A DNA stretch of 30,887 bases from NCBI RefSeq assembly GCF_000003605.2, contig NW_003155259.1, positions 7,330 through 38,216 on the forward strand, read 5' to 3'. Within the stretch, counting starts at the first letter, position 1; each line of letters begins with the position of its first letter. Below are positions 2,536 to 30,887 of this stretch, piece after piece. The notes under the pieces were generated by a model that was not told where the DNA came from, ran no database searches, and was given only the letters and a program-made list of their open reading frames with translations. Source of the DNA: Saccoglossus kowalevskii. Lineage: Eukaryota; Hemichordata; Enteropneusta; Harrimaniidae. Made by a program: the position numbers and the translations under genes.

Positions 2536-3191
2536 GAAGGCGCGACATTGCACTTGATAACGTTATCCGATATTATCGTCTAAAAGTGTCTAAGTTAGAC
2601 AAGTCTCTTTAGGCAACTATTGAGGCAGTTCATTTTTCCCCGATATTATCGATAATATCGTCTAATAATGTCTAATAATGTCTAAGTTAGACAAGCCTCT
2701 TTAGGCAACAATTGGGAAAGTTCGTTTTTCCCCGATATTATCGATAATATCGTCTAATTATGTCTAAAATATCTAAGTTATACATGCCTTTTTAAGCAAC
2801 TATTGGGACAGTTCGTTTTTACTCCGATATTATCGATAATATCGTCCAATAATGTCTAAGTTAAACAGGCCTGTCTGGCCAAACTATTGGGACAGTTCGT
2901 TTTCTTCCGATATTATCGATAATATCGTCTAATAATGTCTAAAAATGTCTAAGTTATACATGCCTCTTTAAGCAACTATTGGGACAGTTCAGTTGTCTCC
3001 GATATTATCGATAATATCGTCTATTAATATCTAAGTTAGACAGGTCTGTCTGGGCAACTATTGGGACAGTTCGTTTTTCTCCGATATTATCGTCTAATAA
3101 TGTCTAAAAATGTTAAAAGTTAGATATCTCTGACAACATTTCATTAGATTTTATTAGACGATAATGATTTATATGACATTGTCGCGCCTTC
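2536..3191. mobile_element. Non-autonomous element made of palindromic ~92-bp tandem units
   Basis: Inverted 12-base ends, GAAGGCGCGACA (2536-2547) and its complement (3180-3191), enclose seven tandem units. Five units carry the perfect 20-base palindrome CGATATTATCGATAATATCG, starting at 2641, 2733, 2825, 2908 and 3000. The first (2568) and last (3082) carry only its left half. Spacings are 73, 92, 92, 83, 92 and 82 bases. The differences come from one or two copies of a decamer like TCTAATAATG and from the missing half-palindrome at 2568. Each unit also holds GTCTAAGTTAGAC (6-base arms around one base) and GCCTCTTTAGGC (4-base arms). No coding capacity and no clear target-site duplication are seen, so the superfamily is unassigned. 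Confidence 0.7.
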
Positions 3192-8949: not shown

Positions 8950-9800
8950 TAATTATTTTTGTTTTCTCTGTATTAATAGTCAGCTTTCAATGTTTTGTGT
9001 AAGTGGAGAGATTATCTATTAGCTCTTTTGTAATCCATGTTTTGTTTCTGAAAGGATGACAATGTCGTCCGCAAAGAGGAGGCACCCAACTTTACTGTTT
9101 CCCAGTGTGGGTGGATTACATGTTGCAGTATCAAAAATTCCTGGTAGGTCATTAATAAACAAATTGAAAAGAGTTGGACTTAAGTTACACCCTTGTTTAA
9201 CCCCAGTATGTGATGAGAATTCAGTTGTTAATCCATCATTAACCTTGACTTTATAGTTTACTTTACTGTACATATCTTTTATAATGTTATAAATATTGCC
9301 TGTTATGCCAGATTTTAATAATTTTAAAAACATTCCTTCATGCCACACACTATCAAATGCCTTCTTAAGGTCTACCAAACAAGCATATAGTCTTTTGGGG
9401 TTTTGTTTGTTCTTATTTCCTGTAAGATCTTTTAGATTTTTGTTATGATGTAGGTACTTATTAATTATTGTTTTTAAAATGAAGAGGTTGTCTGATGTGC
9501 GAGAATCTCTCCTAAACCCAAATTGCTTTTTAGAAATAATATTATTTTTTCTAGGTATGATGTTATTCTTTGGCTAATTATACTCTTATTGTTTAGAGTA
9601 GTATTGTCTTCCGATGATGGATTTAGCAATTTATTAAAGTAATTTAACCACTCATTTGGTGTTGTTGAATTATGTATTTCATTACTGTTTCTATCATTAT
9701 CTAAATCTCGTAATAATTTCCAGAATTTAGAGAAATCTCCCTTTAAACTCTCAAGTTCATTTAGTTGCGAAACTTTAAATTCATTTCACTTTTTTTCAAT
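8950..9800 (-). pseudogene. LINE ORF2: linker and reverse transcriptase, broken
   Basis: Conserved RT blocks appear in order on the minus strand. The linker is KGDFSKFWKLLRDLD at ~9710-9750. Then come QFGFRRDSRTSDNLFILKT (~9470-9525), VDLKKAFDSVWHEGM (~9335-9378), a GVKQGCNLSPTLFNLFINDL block (~9150-9210) and the catalytic LLFADDIVILSE (~9040-9075). KLTINTEKTKII follows after a frameshift at about 9020, with an in-frame stop where a Trp is expected. The FADD catalytic pair is intact, but stops and frameshifts on both sides rule out a working protein. Confidence 0.88.
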
Positions 9801-12817: not shown

Positions 12818-23618
<10,801 letters not shown>

Positions 23619-24058
23619 TATTCATATTTATTCTTATTATTTATTCAAAGTTAAGAATGTACATTAGAGTTAGCAGGGAATGTTGTTCAGTCAGGCATGC
23701 ATGACACAGTATATTGTTATTTCCGAGATGAACTAAAGATTTCACTGTATTTACTTAAAATGCTTGTTTGGGTTCAATTTTCACAACTCTATAAAGAGTC
23801 TTTGATTTGTTGTATTTATTGTTAGTTCATTGTTTTTAAGTGAAATTATTGCATTTCTGTACTTCAGAGGTGCTTCACACCACAACATGCATTCAGAGCA
23901 ACTTGTCATTACATATCTACTAGATACATTTTCAGTTTATTATATACTCTATTCTATAACATTGTATTGCACGCATGAATAGGAGTATAAGTATAATTGT
24001 GGAGTATAAGGGCTAAAATTTGTTTGGCTTTTTTGAATTTGAGTTATTTACTTCATTC

Positions 24059-24064
24059 AATAAA
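24059..24064 (+). terminator. Candidate polyadenylation signal of the P450 gene
   Basis: The first canonical AATAAA after the stop codon lies 441 bases downstream, giving a 3' untranslated region of about 460 bases (23619 to ~24080). The intervening sequence is AT-rich with no other gene signal. No transcript evidence is available here. Confidence 0.5.
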
Positions 24065-24185
24065 ACATTACTTCATCATTTGATTGTCTACAGAGTTTTC
24101 ACAATGAAAGTCGTAATGAATTGAGAAATATCCAAAATACATCAAATGATGACTGAAAACGAAGTAACAAATCACAAGCCTTGGT

Positions 24186-24255
24186 AGCGCTCTAGACTGC
24201 TGGTGGGGACCGCAGCAGTCCAGGGCGCCACCTACGCCAACTTGTCAGGCTAAAG
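24186..24255 (-). repeat. Imperfect hairpin downstream of the P450, partner of 13006
   Basis: CTAGACTGCTG and CAGCAGTCCAG face each other across a short loop (24192-24222). The right flank, GGGCGCCACCTACGCCAACT and GTCAGGCT, is the inverted match to 13006-13045 just after exon 1. Confidence 0.6.
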
Positions 24256-24403
24256 CCTAGGCAGATGTATGAACTCCAGTGTGTACTTTTAACCTTGCTT
24301 TTGCAATTTAACATTTAGATACGACTTGTATCGTTATTCTTTTAATTTTTTGCAAAATAATCACAAATTTCAATCGTTTTAAACAAATTTGATTTTTGCG
24401 CTC

Positions 24404-24960
24404 ATGGCAATGATCGACGAAACCCTGCAAAAACTTGTGGATAATTACCAGGATACTGAAAAGTATATACAAAGACCACACAGCAGAGGTATGAGTGCAT
24501 ACTTTTCGGTATCCTCGAAATAAATAACATTATTATACATCTTTTCTTCCCAAAGATACATCATGGGAATGCCGAAATACAAAAAGTTTAGAACAGATTG
24601 AGCGAACTTCTTTGTATGGCGTCCGGTCAAACCCTGGGGTCTGCCATGTTTGTTTTCATTATAAGAGGACGCTTATGCACGCAATAGTTCCATATTTGTA
24701 ATCCGCTTTTCTAATATGGTGGGACGAAAATGCCCAATGCAATACCACAAAATTACGGCACACTATCTTATGGCGTTATAATAACAGATGTATAATAGGT
24801 GTTAACAAATGCTTTCTACAGCCAATTATGTCTTTGGATTGGAATGAAGCACAGGAGATCAATGAATACTTTCTAAAGCTGTGCAGACCATGTGGATACA
24901 CACCTGTAGCAACTTTTACAACAACTCAAACAGGTTTCAATTTATTTTATTCCAATAGTT
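24404..24960 (+). CDS. Two candidate coding exons of an unrecognised gene
   Basis: At 24404 an ATG opens MAMIDETLQKLV, just before a family A MITE. After the MITE, a good acceptor (TTTCTACAG, ending ~24822) precedes an open stretch reading PIMSLDWNEAQEINEYF and LCRPCGYTPVATF, to a possible weak donor (CAG|GTTTCA, ~24932) or a TGA at ~24960. Both pieces can be phase 0. The donor of the first is poor (CTT|GTGGAT). No further exons are found before the convergent gene at 26036. Protein-like composition is the main support; I do not recognise the product. Confidence 0.25.
24440..24798 (-). mobile_element. MITE family A, copy 3, reversed
   Basis: Read on the minus strand this parallels copy 1 from CTATTATACATCTGTTAT through CATGGCAGACC, GGCATTCCCATGATGTATC and AAGATGTATAATAATG to the hairpin around GTGCATAC. 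The hairpin arms at 24450-24470 and 24495-24520 are intact. A short minus-strand open frame inside it is a by-product. Confidence 0.75.
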
Positions 24961-26007
24961 GAGATGTATATACAATTTTTGTAAGTGGCAGTTGATTATT
25001 AAAAATATTGAAGGCAAATTGTCTTCAATTAAATTACATGGTGAAAATCAATAACTCTCAGCAGAATGTTTTTTGAGCCTTCAGCTACACATATAAATGA
25101 ATATGATCATTCAAGTTGTTGGAACCAAATTCCGTCAGAAATGCAGATAAATTTGGTCAAGCATGTACTTGCAATAAAACCCCAATTTAAAAAGTTAAAT
25201 GTAAAAACCTAAGATTATAATTGATTTATACTGTATCTATAATTCAGTAAACCTGAACAAATTGCAATGCATTGTAGAAAGGTCTAGTTGACAAGATATT
25301 GAACATGTGACATGTTTCTATAACGTTTGAACATGATCAGTCACGAAATGTCGGAGGTTCGTTTCCAACATTTATTAAAATAAACTGACCACTAATTGAA
25401 GCTGATCTGAAAAACAAAATGACATGCAACATCCCATAATGCTCAATGTATGTAACAAGTTTGAACGAACGAGATTTGCTTCCAGAATGGCAGAAATACT
25501 TAATATGGTTGTCATTTGGCATTCAATTATGCAAAATAAGTAATACATATAATGTAAAAGCATTTATTTTCCCTGGTGTTGAATTTCACTGGGTTTTAAT
25601 AAGTTCACAAACAATACTATTATTTTACATGCTCATGTGGATTAAATTTTGCGAACTTATCAGCGAAAATTGTGAAATTAAAAACCAGTGAATAATTAAT
25701 CCAAACTAATTGAGGTGTAGATTATCACAGATTAACCATGTACGGTACTAAGTTTCATTGAAATATCAACCCAAAATCTTCCAATTGGCCGATTATGTAA
25801 TTTATATATTTAATATACACAAATTTCGACCATGATTTGGTCATGCCTGATGATTATTGCAAAGCATGTATGTATCAAGTTTCATTGAAATGTGAGATAT
25901 ATTAGTACAACCATGGTACAACAGATACACGCACGTACATACAGTGTGTTCTAGAATATCCTTGTGAGCCACACACATGGAAGTCGAAAAATACTACCGC
26001 TAACATT
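24961..26007. other. Intergenic stretch with a family B-related inverted repeat
   Basis: At ~25583-25697, TTTCACTGGGTTTTAATAAG and its near-complement ending in AAAACCAGTGAA enclose ~115 bases related to MITE family B. Between 25745 and 25890 the phrase AAGTTTCATTGAAAT occurs twice, probably an old dispersed repeat. No gene is seen. Confidence 0.45.
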
Positions 26008-26013
26008 TTTATT
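26008..26013 (-). terminator. Polyadenylation signal of the zinc-finger/piggyBac gene
   Basis: AATAAA on the minus strand lies 22 bases after the TGA stop (26036-26038). This implies a very short 3' untranslated region. It is the first canonical signal downstream of the coding region. Confidence 0.5.
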
Positions 26014-26035
26014 TCAATTCAGGTGCGTTACGCAT

Positions 26036-29000
26036 TCACCATTGACAGTAAGAACCAATCAGCTGGTAGGCTATTTTCCTACGAAACTCAAACATTTCCA
26101 AACCACCCGAATGATGAGTAGAATAATTGATAAATGCATTGTGTATCACTTTATTAATGAGGTAGCTAAATCTTGAAGCCGTATTACTCTTGTTTCCATG
26201 CCAACCTGTGCCATACTTCGAAAACAAATTTTCATGCTTGTGTGCATTAGTTTGCTCATTTCTACATTTTTCAATCAACGTGGTTTGGTCATTAACAGCA
26301 AACACCACAGACGACAAAATCTGGTGGTAGCACCCATCATCATTTCTATAATTGTAAACAGCTAAATGTCCATCTTGATGCTTCACTGACTGCCCAGGTT
26401 GTAGATCTGGAAGGTCTACAATTGAAGTGGTGTCCACTGCACCATACACTTGCATACCTCGGAAATACAAATCCAGAATTATTCGAGAAGAACATGAATT
26501 ACTATCCAAGTAAACGATAGGATTCAGTTCTTCAAAGGGTTTCAGCAAAGATATTTCAACATCAGACTTTGGTGGCAACTGACACCCAGCTACTTTCAAC
26601 GAACATACATCATTGAATATATATCCCAAGTTTGAATCAAAAACAATATGAACTAAGGAAGATACTGGGGTGATATTCTTAGAAATTTTACCCTGTGAGT
26701 CAACAGCATAGACATTCACACTCAGTTCCGCACCTGGCTTTCTCACTTTTAGTGCATTCTTATTAAATCTTTCACAGATGCTATCAAAAAATTCTTGCTC
26801 TTGCTCGCTCGAGGACTGATTAGAAGGAAAGAGAGAACGCAACACTTCTTGAAATCTCTCTAATCCGAGAATTGTTTTAATCTTTGCATTACCGAGGTCT
26901 GGTGCACAGCTCCAATAGTGCTCGAGTAAAGGAACCTGACTATATCCTTGAATTATGCAAACACCTATAAAAGCTTTCATTTCATCAACTGACGTACCAA
27001 CACAAGATTCATTAGGATATTCAAAATTTGAATTAACCCAATTCACCATAAGTTGTAACATTTCATCATCAAATAGTTCCGTGACAAATCTGATTAAGCA
27101 ACAGCCTCGTTCTAAACTGCCTACGTATAAAGACTTATAATCCGAAGCTTGATGGTTTTTGTTGACTGACTCTTTCACTGGTTCAACTGTGATTAGTTCC
27201 ACGGGCGCAGGAGGTTTTATGACGGATTTCTTTCTCTTGTCTTCCTTTCTAACAAGTTCAGAGCTCTTGGAAAAAGTACAAGACTGTTTGTGATCTAAAT
27301 AATGATGTTTTAATTTAGTCCTAAAGGAACAAGCGAAGCAGCCGTACATCATTTCTTCTCTCTTCAAATAGTGCACACTTCTTAAATGCAAGAACATTGC
27401 ACTTGTCTGTCTAAAACTAGCCCTACATAAGTAACACTGGAACGGTGACTCCCCAGTATGTCGAAAAATGTGCTTCAAAACACTGCCTCTATCTTTTGAT
27501 GTGTATTTGCAAACCTTACATTTGAATAACTTGTTAACGATATCAGATTCCATCAGATCATGTTTTGGGGTATGTCTTTTCCTCCATTTGCTCAATTTAC
27601 TGTTCCTTAACATGCCTTGCATCCGTTTATTAATTTCAGCCCGAATGAATGAAGCATCAGTTGATTTTTCTTTTGAGATGCAGCTCTGTTGATTAGTATC
27701 TGTGAGATCTATGCAATCAATATCACACGAGTCAGGGAGTTTTTTTTCTGAAAGATGTTGACTCTTGTCCATTTCATGTGAAGACTTGAGCTCCGTGCCA
27801 ACATTCACAGCTTGCATCGTCTGTGATTCTACATGTACTCTGTCAGTGTCCTCTATCACAGTATTTTCTTTAGAGTTCAAAGAGATGTTTTGAATTTGTG
27901 GGAAAGCACCTGTATTTCCTGCAACTTCTGGATTTGGAAAGTGCTCTTTTTTGTGCTCAAGATAGACATGTTTTAGTTTGTTGTGAAATGGCAAACACAA
28001 CACCCATACTGCATCTGCTCACCTCTGCAATGGTGCAGGCGTCTCATATGTAAAAACATTGAACTTGACTGTTTAAAACTTTTCCTACACAGATAACATT
28101 GATATGGCTGCTCTCTAGTATGTTTTGCAAAGTGTTTGATAATACTACTCTTAATTTTAGAAGTGTATAAACAAATCTTGCATCTGTACACTTTTGCTGA
28201 TTTTAAAAATTCAATATCAGATGACAAAATATCTGTGCTCTTTCTGGAGTTTTCTGCAGAAGACTGTGCAATGGCAACACCGCGACCAGCATCAACAGCA
28301 GTTGGGATCACTATATCAGAAACAAGAGTTTCTCCATCATCTGGCTTGTGAGTGTTCTGGTGGCTTTGAAAGAGATTCTGTGAAGATGTTTGAAAGTTAC
28401 ATATCGAACAAATATACTGGCTACAACCACCTTGTGAAATGGAATGCACCCACTCAAGGTGTGTGACTAATGTATGTCTCTGTCGAAACTGTCTGTTGCA
28501 CTCAGGACATACATGTACAACAGGAGGCTCAACGGGAACCGGAGGCTCAACGGGAACTGGAGGCTCAACGGGAACCAGAGGCTCAACGGGTACAGGGGTC
28601 TGTTCCAGCAGAACCGGTGCTTCAACGATTTTTTTTTTTTGCTGAGGTACTTTGAATTTAGATAATTTCACATGTTTGGAGTGCCTCATAGGTTGAGCTA
28701 TTCCATGTATTCTTCTCATATGCAGATACAATGCACTGCTTTGGGTGAATGCAACGGCAACACCAACCGTTTGACAAAAAGTACATCTGAATGGCCGCTT
28801 ACCAGTATGCTTGGGAGAATGTTTCACCAAGTCAGATTTTCTTTTACAGGTATAAGAACACTCTTTGCAATTGTACTCCTTTTTAGATGGACTCCATTCA
28901 TAATCAATGTCCAACTCTTTTCCAGGTTTTGAAACGATTGCGTTACCATGTGAAGCTCCTGATGTAGGAATACTGAGCAAAGCACTTTCACTTTCCTCTG

Positions 29001-29604
29001 CATTTTTGAAAGAACTGCCGTGTGAACCAGAAATCATGTCATCAGACTGAGAAATTACTATAATTTCATTTCCATAGTTATTTTTTGCAAGTCTGTTATT
29101 AGGGAGAAACATGCTAGTTCGAGACACATCATTATTACCACAGTCTGTAGAATATGCCATTGGCCGTGCCTCATAAACACCATCAACAGTGTTGTAGATG
29201 GCGACTGCTGAGTCTTTCTTCACATCCTGGGAAGCTGCAACCATACTTTCATTCAATGACGCGAACCCTGCTGCATAATCAGGCTGAAGTAGACCAGCAC
29301 CATCCACATCTCCAACAGAGGACATCGGATTTGATTCATTGGCGTTACATACACCCGACGCCTGGTTCTCAAATGTAGCCAGGTAATGTTCATTGTCAAA
29401 TGTATCATCCATTGCTACTGTATTAGCCCCACCCATTGCATCAATATTGTCTGTATCTATATCTTGTTTGATCATACCATTCACAACCGTCCATACATTC
29501 CTGGAGTCCACAGAAGGTGTTAAATCATCACCACTGTGCTCATCTTTCTCAGGAGTATGGCATTCCAGTTTCTGAGTTACAGCTTGACTGTTCGCATCCG
29601 CCAT
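26036..29604 (-). CDS. C2H2 zinc-finger / piggyBac-transposase-derived fusion protein, with one frameshift
   Basis: Start at 29602-29604 (GACATGGCG, strong context), beginning MADANSQAV. The first frame runs 543 codons to TAA at 27973. The continuing frame runs to TGA at 26036, together about 1,190 residues. First frame: acidic N-terminus 1-240, C2H2 fingers with first Cys at residues 246, 274, 366, 399, 475 and 503, and a Pro-Val-Glu repeat at 336-362. A seventh finger (Cys535, Cys538) is cut by the frame break, and its helix and histidines continue in the other frame (KLKHVYLEH). That frame adds three more fingers (27280-27530) and a domain (26054-27091) matching piggyBac transposases block by block. 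Likely a nuclear DNA-binding protein domesticated from a transposon, like vertebrate PGBD genes. A one-base loss near 27977-27979 explains the break. If real, the product may be the finger-only 543-residue form, or the gene is dead. Confidence 0.85.
26054..27091 (-). other. piggyBac-transposase-derived (DDE_Tnp_1_7-like) domain
   Basis: Blocks in order: LFDDEMLQLMVNWVNSN; MKAFIGVCIIQGYSQVPLL with HYWS (family: LkaFiGi...MG...P.l..YWs); LGLERFQEVLRSLFPSN (family: ms..RF..il..lhf.dN); KPGAELSVNVYAVDSQGK, where families have a lsiDE core and KGR; VFDSNLGYIF (second catalytic Asp, 26636-26638); YLDSNSCSSRIILDLYFRGM with GAV (family: DNfyTS...L...gi...GTv); FAVNDQTTLI (third Asp, 26288-26290); and NAFINY with RRKIAYQLIG near the end. 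The first catalytic Asp is Asn (AAT, 26714-26716). The family's GGVD motif and C-terminal Cys-rich domain are not seen. Catalysis is therefore unlikely and retained DNA binding plausible. Confidence 0.82.
28525..28596 (-). repeat. In-frame 18-bp minisatellite in the zinc-finger gene
   Basis: Four tandem 18-base units (plus strand AGGCTCAACGGGAACCGG and variants) encode repeats of Pro-Val-Glu-Pro-Pro-Val in the linker between finger 2 and finger 3. Being a multiple of three, it can vary in copy number without disturbing the frame. Confidence 0.9.
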
Positions 29605-29680
29605 GTCCTTTATGTACGATTTACCACACAATAGATGTGTATATGGATTTACCACCAGAAATTGCAAATCTACAGTGGTT

Positions 29681-29758
29681 TTAGAAAAATAGTTGGACCA
29701 GTACATATGCAGTCCTTCTAGCTTTCAACATAAATACATCTATGTCACTGGCATCCAT
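29681..29758 (-). other. Upstream ORF in the 5' leader of the zinc-finger gene
   Basis: A 25-codon frame starts at ATG 29756-29758 and ends at TAA 29681-29683, 76 bases before the main start. A polypyrimidine tract and AG (minus strand, acceptor ending at 29861-29862) suggest that this leader begins a second exon, so the whole coding region would lie in one exon. Whether the uORF is translated is unknown. Confidence 0.4.
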
Positions 29759-29860
29759 CTCGAATGTCAACTATGCAGTTATTAATGGATTTTCTACTTC
29801 TTTTCAGCGTCTTGATCTAAGCAATACTTTTCTCAGGGACTTCCGAAAGTTGACTGTTAA

Positions 29861-30547
29861 CTAAAAAGAGATGAAAGAAAACAATGATAATTTTTTTTCA
29901 AATTTGAAGACATTTATGATATGCATGTTCAACAGGAACCTACATGTACTGATCCTCGGCAACTTTCGGAATGGAAATATTATGCATGTGATCAAATATA
30001 CACAACTTTTTATTATTTTTTTTACCATTATGTAAAATCACATGGCTATTTATTTAAATACCATAGTTGAAAGCTTAAGGTCGAGCAAAAAAATGTTTGT
30101 ATTTCCACACAGTAACATGCATTGACTGTAATTTTGTTGGTAACAAAAGGTACGTTTCAGAAGAAGTTGCAAATTAAACGCAGAAACGCATTGCTTAAAG
30201 GCAAATGATCCTAAGTAATGAAACAACTGGATTTTTTTTCCTGAAATCAGGAAAAAAGTCATTTTTGGAAAATTAACTGAGCATTGAAGAAGAATTCAAC
30301 TCTTTATGCTGATAACTCATTGTTAAAAAAGACACTAGTCACAGGAAAGATTATAATGTTTGGAAAATGACACTTGAATTAAAAAATGTATGGTAAAGCA
30401 AAATCTTTTTTTGACCATAGATTCACCTAGAGCTGTTATTTACATAAGTGCATGCACTTCCAATAAAGAAAATATGGTATTTGTGAATGAATGTTTTTTG
30501 ACTAAGTCTTGTTAGTGAACTGCCTGAAATTCTAGTATGCGTTTTTT
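29861..30547. other. Upstream region of the zinc-finger gene
   Basis: AT-rich sequence with no convincing coding frame, repeat or promoter motif. It probably holds intron or upstream sequence of the minus-strand gene. The minus-strand open frame at 30050-30262 has no recognisable similarity. Confidence 0.35.
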
Positions 30548-30887
30548 GCTCCGCTGTCAACTTTGTCGAGCGGAGCTTATCATATGAGTGATTGTCCGTC
30601 GTCGTCCGTCGTCGTTGTCCGCCGTCGTCCGTGTCAATGTTTTACTTTTTCGACTTCTTCTTGAAAACTACAAGCCTAAATGCTTTGATACTTGGTGTAT
30701 ATGTACCTTGGGTAGACCTCTCTTAGGTTTGTTCATTTCATGTTGATATCTTTAATTCTCTAATTTTGGTGAATATTTTTGTCATTTTTGGTAAAAACTG
30801 ATATTTTCGACTTCTTGTTAAAAACCGCAAGTGCAATTGCTTTGATATTACATCTATAGGTACTACATGTGGACCTCTCTCAGATTT
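30548..30887 (+). mobile_element. Foldback-ended MITE family F, copy 2 (cut by window end)
   Basis: It starts with the same hairpin as copy 1 (GCTCCGCTGTC ... CGAGCGGAGC). TCCGTCG-type repeats follow, then GTGTCAATGTTTTACTTTTT and CGACTTCTTCTTGAAAAC. It matches 11581 onward closely over 340 bases and runs off the window. Confidence 0.85.

Follow-up and report, generated by a model that had tools for sequence, protein, structure and literature searches.

We analysed a stretch of 30,887 nucleotides from the hemichordate Saccoglossus kowalevskii (contig NW_003155259.1, positions 7,330 to 38,216; hereafter the window, in whose numbering all coordinates are given), which carries on its minus strand a gene combining an array of C2H2 zinc fingers with a domain derived from a piggyBac transposase. 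This fusion gene extends over 26036-29604 (or up to 29706), and its stop codon (26036-26038) and likely start ATG (29602-29604) agree with the limits given for it in an earlier note made from the letters of the window. It comprises two open reading frames (ORFs), ORF2 and, downstream of it, ORF1, which are read in different frames and share 31 bases. Ten C2H2-type fingers (28869-27278) lie ahead of the piggyBac domain, in line with the roughly ten that the earlier note had counted, and at least fingers 8 to 10 are fused to the domain in one open frame. For these three fingers host and transposase domains are found in a single coding frame, and the gene is a variant of the known class of host-transposase fusions.

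Measured from stop to stop, the two open stretches comprise 583 and 660 codons. In 200 dinucleotide shuffles of that DNA, read in three frames of one strand, the maximum was 251 codons (mean, 95); both open stretches are far longer than this and are not due to chance. The only run of N in the window (13127-13481) lies outside the gene. An in-frame TGA is present 41 codons 5' of the likely start ATG, and the approximately 245 residues of ORF2 that follow this ATG are net acidic (39 D+E, 15 K+R) and have no Pfam match.

The transposase-derived part was matched over its full length by the Pfam profile PF13843 (DDE_Tnp_1_7), the check that the earlier note had named for its piggyBac assignment (ORF1, profile positions 8-349 of 349; E = 4.6e-30; 105.5 bits, with a cut-off of 22.4). 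Judged by this match, the domain belongs to the piggyBac superfamily by descent. Its predicted fold also matches the piggyBac fold (VIA-align 2); a fold predicted from the single sequence had a mean predicted local distance difference test score (pLDDT) of 35 and was not used. By alignment, the domain lacks the DDD triad of active piggyBac transposase, the first and third aspartates having been lost, and it is probably catalytically dead.

According to the available part of PMC9499001, piggyBac has a dimerisation and DNA-binding region, an RNase H-like core, and a C-terminal cysteine-rich domain, the last of which is important when transposon DNA is bound. ORF1 ends where four other piggyBac loci of this genome (L002, L003, L005, and L007) run on into that cysteine-rich domain. 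A profile of it, built from five sequences including L005 (the positive control, which thus matches by construction), gave no match within the inclusion threshold in the six frames of the window (best, 10.5 bits at 15735-15902), and a separate cysteine-rich exon within the window was rejected on this basis. Cutting is unlikely because the triad is broken, and without the cysteine-rich domain the protein is also less likely to recognise piggyBac ends. The suggestion, made in the earlier note, that two DNA-binding modules target transposon-like sites is weakly supported: since the piggyBac part lacks the cysteine-rich domain and two of the three catalytic aspartates, the fingers are the likelier targeting part.

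Eight of the ten fingers are complete C2H2 fingers, finger 7 is split, and finger 10 ends in cysteine (C-C-H-C). The profile PF00096 (zf-C2H2) matched five stretches of ORF2 (53.4 bits; cut-off, 25.2), as in C2H2 zinc-finger proteins. ORF1 alone reached 12.1 bits with this profile, under the cut-off, and its fingers matched many solved C2H2 proteins, the best being a CTCF chain (E = 2.2e-23, with the whole of ORF1 as the query). Fingers 5 to 7 and 8 to 10 are sister triplets: of the 78 codons compared between them, 33 encode different amino acids, and 26, 18, and 36 differences fall on codon positions 1, 2, and 3, respectively. By the NG86 method, nonsynonymous divergence (dN) between the triplets was 0.29, and synonymous divergence (dS) was not computable, which we read as saturation. 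The first module is partly similar to the other two (local nucleotide alignment score of 52 versus 149 between modules 2 and 3).

Table 1. Features of the fusion gene in window coordinates, in the order in which the minus strand is read; catalytic positions are numbered after T. ni piggyBac
Feature	Coordinates	Strand	Remarks
ORF2	27973..29706	-	577 aa; N-terminal region, fingers 1-6, and cysteine half of finger 7
C2H2 finger 1	28807..28869	-	
C2H2 finger 2	28705..28785	-	Loop longer than in sister fingers (by eye); may be weakened
18-bp tandem repeat, four copies	28519..28590	-	Encodes Pro-Val-Glu-Pro-rich linker between fingers 2 and 3
C2H2 finger 3	28444..28509	-	
C2H2 finger 4	28348..28410	-	
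C2H2 finger 5	28120..28182	-	First of module 2
C2H2 finger 6	28030..28098	-	
Finger 7	27938..28002	-	Split by frame change
ORF1	26036..28003	-	655 aa; histidine half of finger 7, fingers 8-10, linker, piggyBac-derived domain, and stop
C2H2 finger 8	27458..27520	-	First of module 3; sister of finger 5
C2H2 finger 9	27371..27436	-	Sister of finger 6
Finger 10 (C-C-H-C)	27278..27340	-	Sister of finger 7
piggyBac-derived domain (PF13843, DDE_Tnp_1_7)	26132..27079	-	Full profile, Pfam
First catalytic position (D268)	26714..26716	-	Asn in two of three alignment modes
Second catalytic position (D346)	26504..26506	-	Asp kept in all three alignment modes
Third catalytic position (D447)	26237..26239	-	Lys in all three alignment modes
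AATAAA polyadenylation-type signal	26008..26013	-	Approximately 20 nt 3' of stop codon

In the 572-Mb genome the piggyBac part scored 864.8 bits with itself and 24.9 bits with the next match (9 places, E up to 1) and hence occupies one place, as a domesticated transposase gene does. The finger part (76 of 290 candidates scored) gave six matches at E ≤ 1e-5, namely itself, the second module of the same array, and four further places in which C2H2 motifs abound. When the regions on either side of the gene (22001-26036 and 29605-30887) were searched for TTAA-flanked inverted repeats, the best pair agreed at 10 of 16 positions, against 9 to 13 in shuffled sequence, and 46 of the 50 shuffles did equally well or better. 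Of 36 other PF13843 places in the genome, 23 were read (27 overlapping loci, of which many were flanked by just 1.5 kb and some contained extended runs of N). No open frame at these places held two or more C2H2 motifs, compared to five in ORF2 by the same pattern.

Some of the resident piggyBac copies (L002 and L003) retain both the catalytic triad and the cysteine-rich domain. Resident elements were also considered as direct parents of the domain, which is unlikely, as the aligned sequences were only 18 to 24% identical to it. L001, L003, and L004 (contig C3891, 12.7 kb) and L002 (C3732) are closely similar to one another (L001 and L002 are 95% identical) and are possibly a young piggyBac family; L004 has one stop, and the frame of L001 stops ahead of the cysteine-rich domain. 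At L005 (304-3129) we found a piggyBac open frame of 942 codons in which the cysteine-rich domain is kept and the second catalytic aspartate is lost; this may be a further domesticated piggyBac gene of the genome. L007 (955-3507) has a piggyBac open frame of 851 codons with nine-residue tandem repeats at its C-terminal end. An open frame of 2,265 codons with a piggyBac match (contig C1340), seemingly a giant fusion, proved to be an artefact of a run of N. Relatives in viral contigs were sought in two scans (with P0003 and with a piggyBat stretch), which gave 8 and 3 pattern matches, respectively, and no confirmed locus. On a mitochondrial contig, the COX1 frame holds 9 TGA codons read as sense and is open under the invertebrate code, but equally under the vertebrate, echinoderm, and ascidian codes, so that it does not establish a phylum.

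Tail to tail with the fusion gene lies a plus-strand cytochrome P450 gene whose exons fall within 15279-23615 (PF00067 in 4 of 10 ORFs tested). A Pfam scan outside the fusion gene covered 104 of the 150 ORFs of at least 52 codons, and five of these 104 matched P450. It also revealed a reverse transcriptase (RVT_1) remnant at 9022-9573 on the minus strand (E = 2.1e-24) and weak single matches to WBS28, to HTH_Tnp_Tc5 (E = 0.0013), which is the DNA-binding domain of Tc5-type transposases, and to ITAM_Cys-rich. A tandem array at 2578-3118 can be described as six copies of a 92-bp unit or as three of a 175-bp period, and the unit holds a palindromic stretch. No RNA families or tRNAs were found in the window. 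Upstream of the fusion gene, past 30887, all 9,684 fetched bases of the contig read N, because of which a far 5' exon of the gene cannot be seen.

On balance we favour the reading that the host has domesticated a host-transposase fusion, in which the piggyBac part is catalytically dead, the fingers do the targeting, and the core is a scaffold. A single coding sequence would have formed from a zinc-finger gene of the C2H2 type and a piggyBac transposase. The transposase would then have lost two of its three catalytic aspartates and the C-terminal cysteine-rich domain, with its dimerisation region and RNase H-like core otherwise retained. The finger array would select DNA sites, and the piggyBac core, no longer cutting, may act as a platform for dimerisation, DNA bridging, or protein docking. 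Such a dimer scaffold or docking surface could let a finger protein bridge or recruit, somewhat like CSB-PGBD3, and the protein may be a sequence-specific regulator of chromatin or transcription.

Several observations weigh against this reading, above all the frame change between ORF2 and ORF1. The reading frame switches within finger 7, whose cysteines are encoded in ORF2 and whose histidines are encoded in ORF1, so that the assembled sequence, as printed, does not encode the whole fusion; the earlier note had overlooked the switch and spoken of one intronless coding region. No second copy or allele by which the break could be judged was found in the assembly, and with this one break the gene, known here from a single genome, is no more than a putative living gene. 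As for the piggyBac part, one of the three alignment modes puts a nearby Ser at the first catalytic position, and the fold model has a mean pLDDT of 52 and does not provide an independent match, because resident piggyBac proteins were in its alignment. The codon-position test on the finger triplets is weak (approximately P = 0.05, worked by hand), and 13 of the 36 other piggyBac places fall outside the comparison described above.

Both halves of finger 7 are similar to its module 3 sister, finger 10, and since finger 7 spans the break, the frames of ORF1 and ORF2 must once have been one. The change is also the sole break over approximately 1,190 codons (about 3.57 kb) from ATG to stop, for which reason we attribute it to an error in the assembly, to a lesion confined to one allele, or to a lesion of very recent date; it may also mark a fresh pseudogene. 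The break lies away from long homopolymers (A/T runs of at least 7 occur in the gene only at 27740 and 28629). Programmed frameshifting was considered by eye only, and no classical slippery heptamer was seen at the break. The fusion does not depend on the cause, because fingers 8 to 10 and the piggyBac domain occupy one open frame. The fusion proposed in the earlier note accordingly stands for these three fingers; fingers 1 to 7 lie across the frame change and may no longer be translated together with the piggyBac domain.

The most serious rival to a functional fusion gene is a recently dead one, or a segregating null allele, in which a real break ends translation after six and a half fingers and either only the ORF2 finger protein or nothing at all is made. 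We regard this as unlikely, though to be reckoned with. The frame change is there in the assembled sequence, away from any long homopolymer and in a gene without N, and the odd loop of finger 2, as seen by eye, could be a further sign of decay. Single-base errors occur in draft assemblies, however, and over the entire length of the gene no other stop or frame change has accumulated, whereas more lesions would be expected with time; the open stretches, moreover, far exceed those of the shuffles.

The overlapping ORFs could instead belong to two transcription units, ORF2 encoding an independent C2H2 protein and ORF1 a short piggyBac protein with three fingers, or splicing could skip the broken finger and join the frames. 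That ORF1 and ORF2 are separate open frames agrees with either arrangement, both of which we consider improbable: finger 7 straddles the change with two halves resembling finger 10, as in a frame that was once continuous, and even then three fingers would remain fused to piggyBac. Capture of fingers by a piggyBac-like element that is still mobile, or is moved by others, would explain the transposase origin of the domain and the compact coding stretch with no evident intron and its own polyadenylation-type signal, but this reading is nearly refuted by the single genomic place, the broken triad, the missing cysteine-rich domain, and the lack of TTAA or inverted-repeat ends above shuffles. Mobility of the fusion gene is very unlikely.

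New regulators have arisen repeatedly by fusion of transposases to host domains, and in the literature seen, in part only, most cases are from vertebrates. The comparisons below draw on excerpts of the cited papers. We found no natural C2H2-piggyBac gene in a search of one open-access library; the earlier note names only other N-terminal additions, such as SCAN and KRAB in mammalian PGBD1, for known domesticated piggyBac genes. The closest architecture is that of POGZ (pogo transposable element derived with ZNF domain), though from another transposase superfamily. Seven to nine scattered fingers at the N terminus of POGZ precede a transposase-derived DDE domain (PMC7386202), as fingers precede the piggyBac domain here. 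POGZ differs in that its domain is a pogo DDE_1 with a well-conserved triad, accompanied by HTH_Tnp_Tc5 (PMC7386202), whereas the fusion gene has PF13843 and a broken triad; neither HTH_Tnp_Tc5 nor DDE_1 was detected in ORF1 or ORF2 (Pfam, up to E = 1). Tentatively, and with rather less confidence than in domestication itself, we propose that this is the first natural fusion of a C2H2 array with piggyBac and that the POGZ design was reached independently from another transposase superfamily, the end-binding domain having been swapped for a duplicated finger array and the dead core serving as the dimerisation platform of a sequence-specific, DNA-bridging regulator. If so, an invertebrate C2H2-piggyBac gene would show that a design of finger array plus transposase evolved more than once, from different transposases.

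Among piggyBac-derived genes, PGBD1 likewise has extra domains N-terminal to the transposase domain, which in proteins of this type are mostly SCAN and KRAB (PMC9499001) and in the fusion gene are C2H2 fingers instead. Neither SCAN nor KRAB was detected in ORF1 or ORF2 (Pfam, up to E = 1), an unseen 5' exon being possible. In CSB-PGBD3 a host N terminus is also joined to a piggyBac domain, and the protein alters transcription (PMC3459987). There, the N terminus is that of CSB and the fusion arises by alternative splicing into an intronic transposon (PMC3459987), in contrast to the one open frame found here. The effects of CSB-PGBD3 on genes track the partners of its N terminus and not its transposon sites (PMC3459987); the S. 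kowalevskii gene, if correctly read, would offer a testable case for the role of a non-cutting piggyBac core. PGBD5, too, is a piggyBac-derived host gene without the classical catalytic triad (PMC12324416), a likeness of description, and no finger array is mentioned for it in the excerpt of that source. PGBD5 and SETMAR illustrate that noncanonical triads need not mean inactivity (PMC12324416).

Finger arrays have been joined to domains of mobile or viral origin elsewhere as well. BTB/POZ-integrase proteins that carry zinc-finger arrays are reported in a survey that examined 10 million eukaryotic proteins for fusion to domains from transposons or viruses (PMC12062965). These proteins differ from the fusion gene in that the captured domain is an integrase zinc-binding domain in N-terminal position, with BTB/POZ in addition and no transposase core. 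C2H2 and DDE_Tnp_1_7 are absent from the main text of that survey, as far as it was available (PMC12062965). Fingers joined to piggyBac are known from the engineered Znf-PB proteins, which are laboratory constructs for integration (PMC10719622), whereas the fusion gene is natural and has lost catalytic residues; on the reading favoured here, it would be the natural counterpart of such zinc-finger-piggyBac tools.
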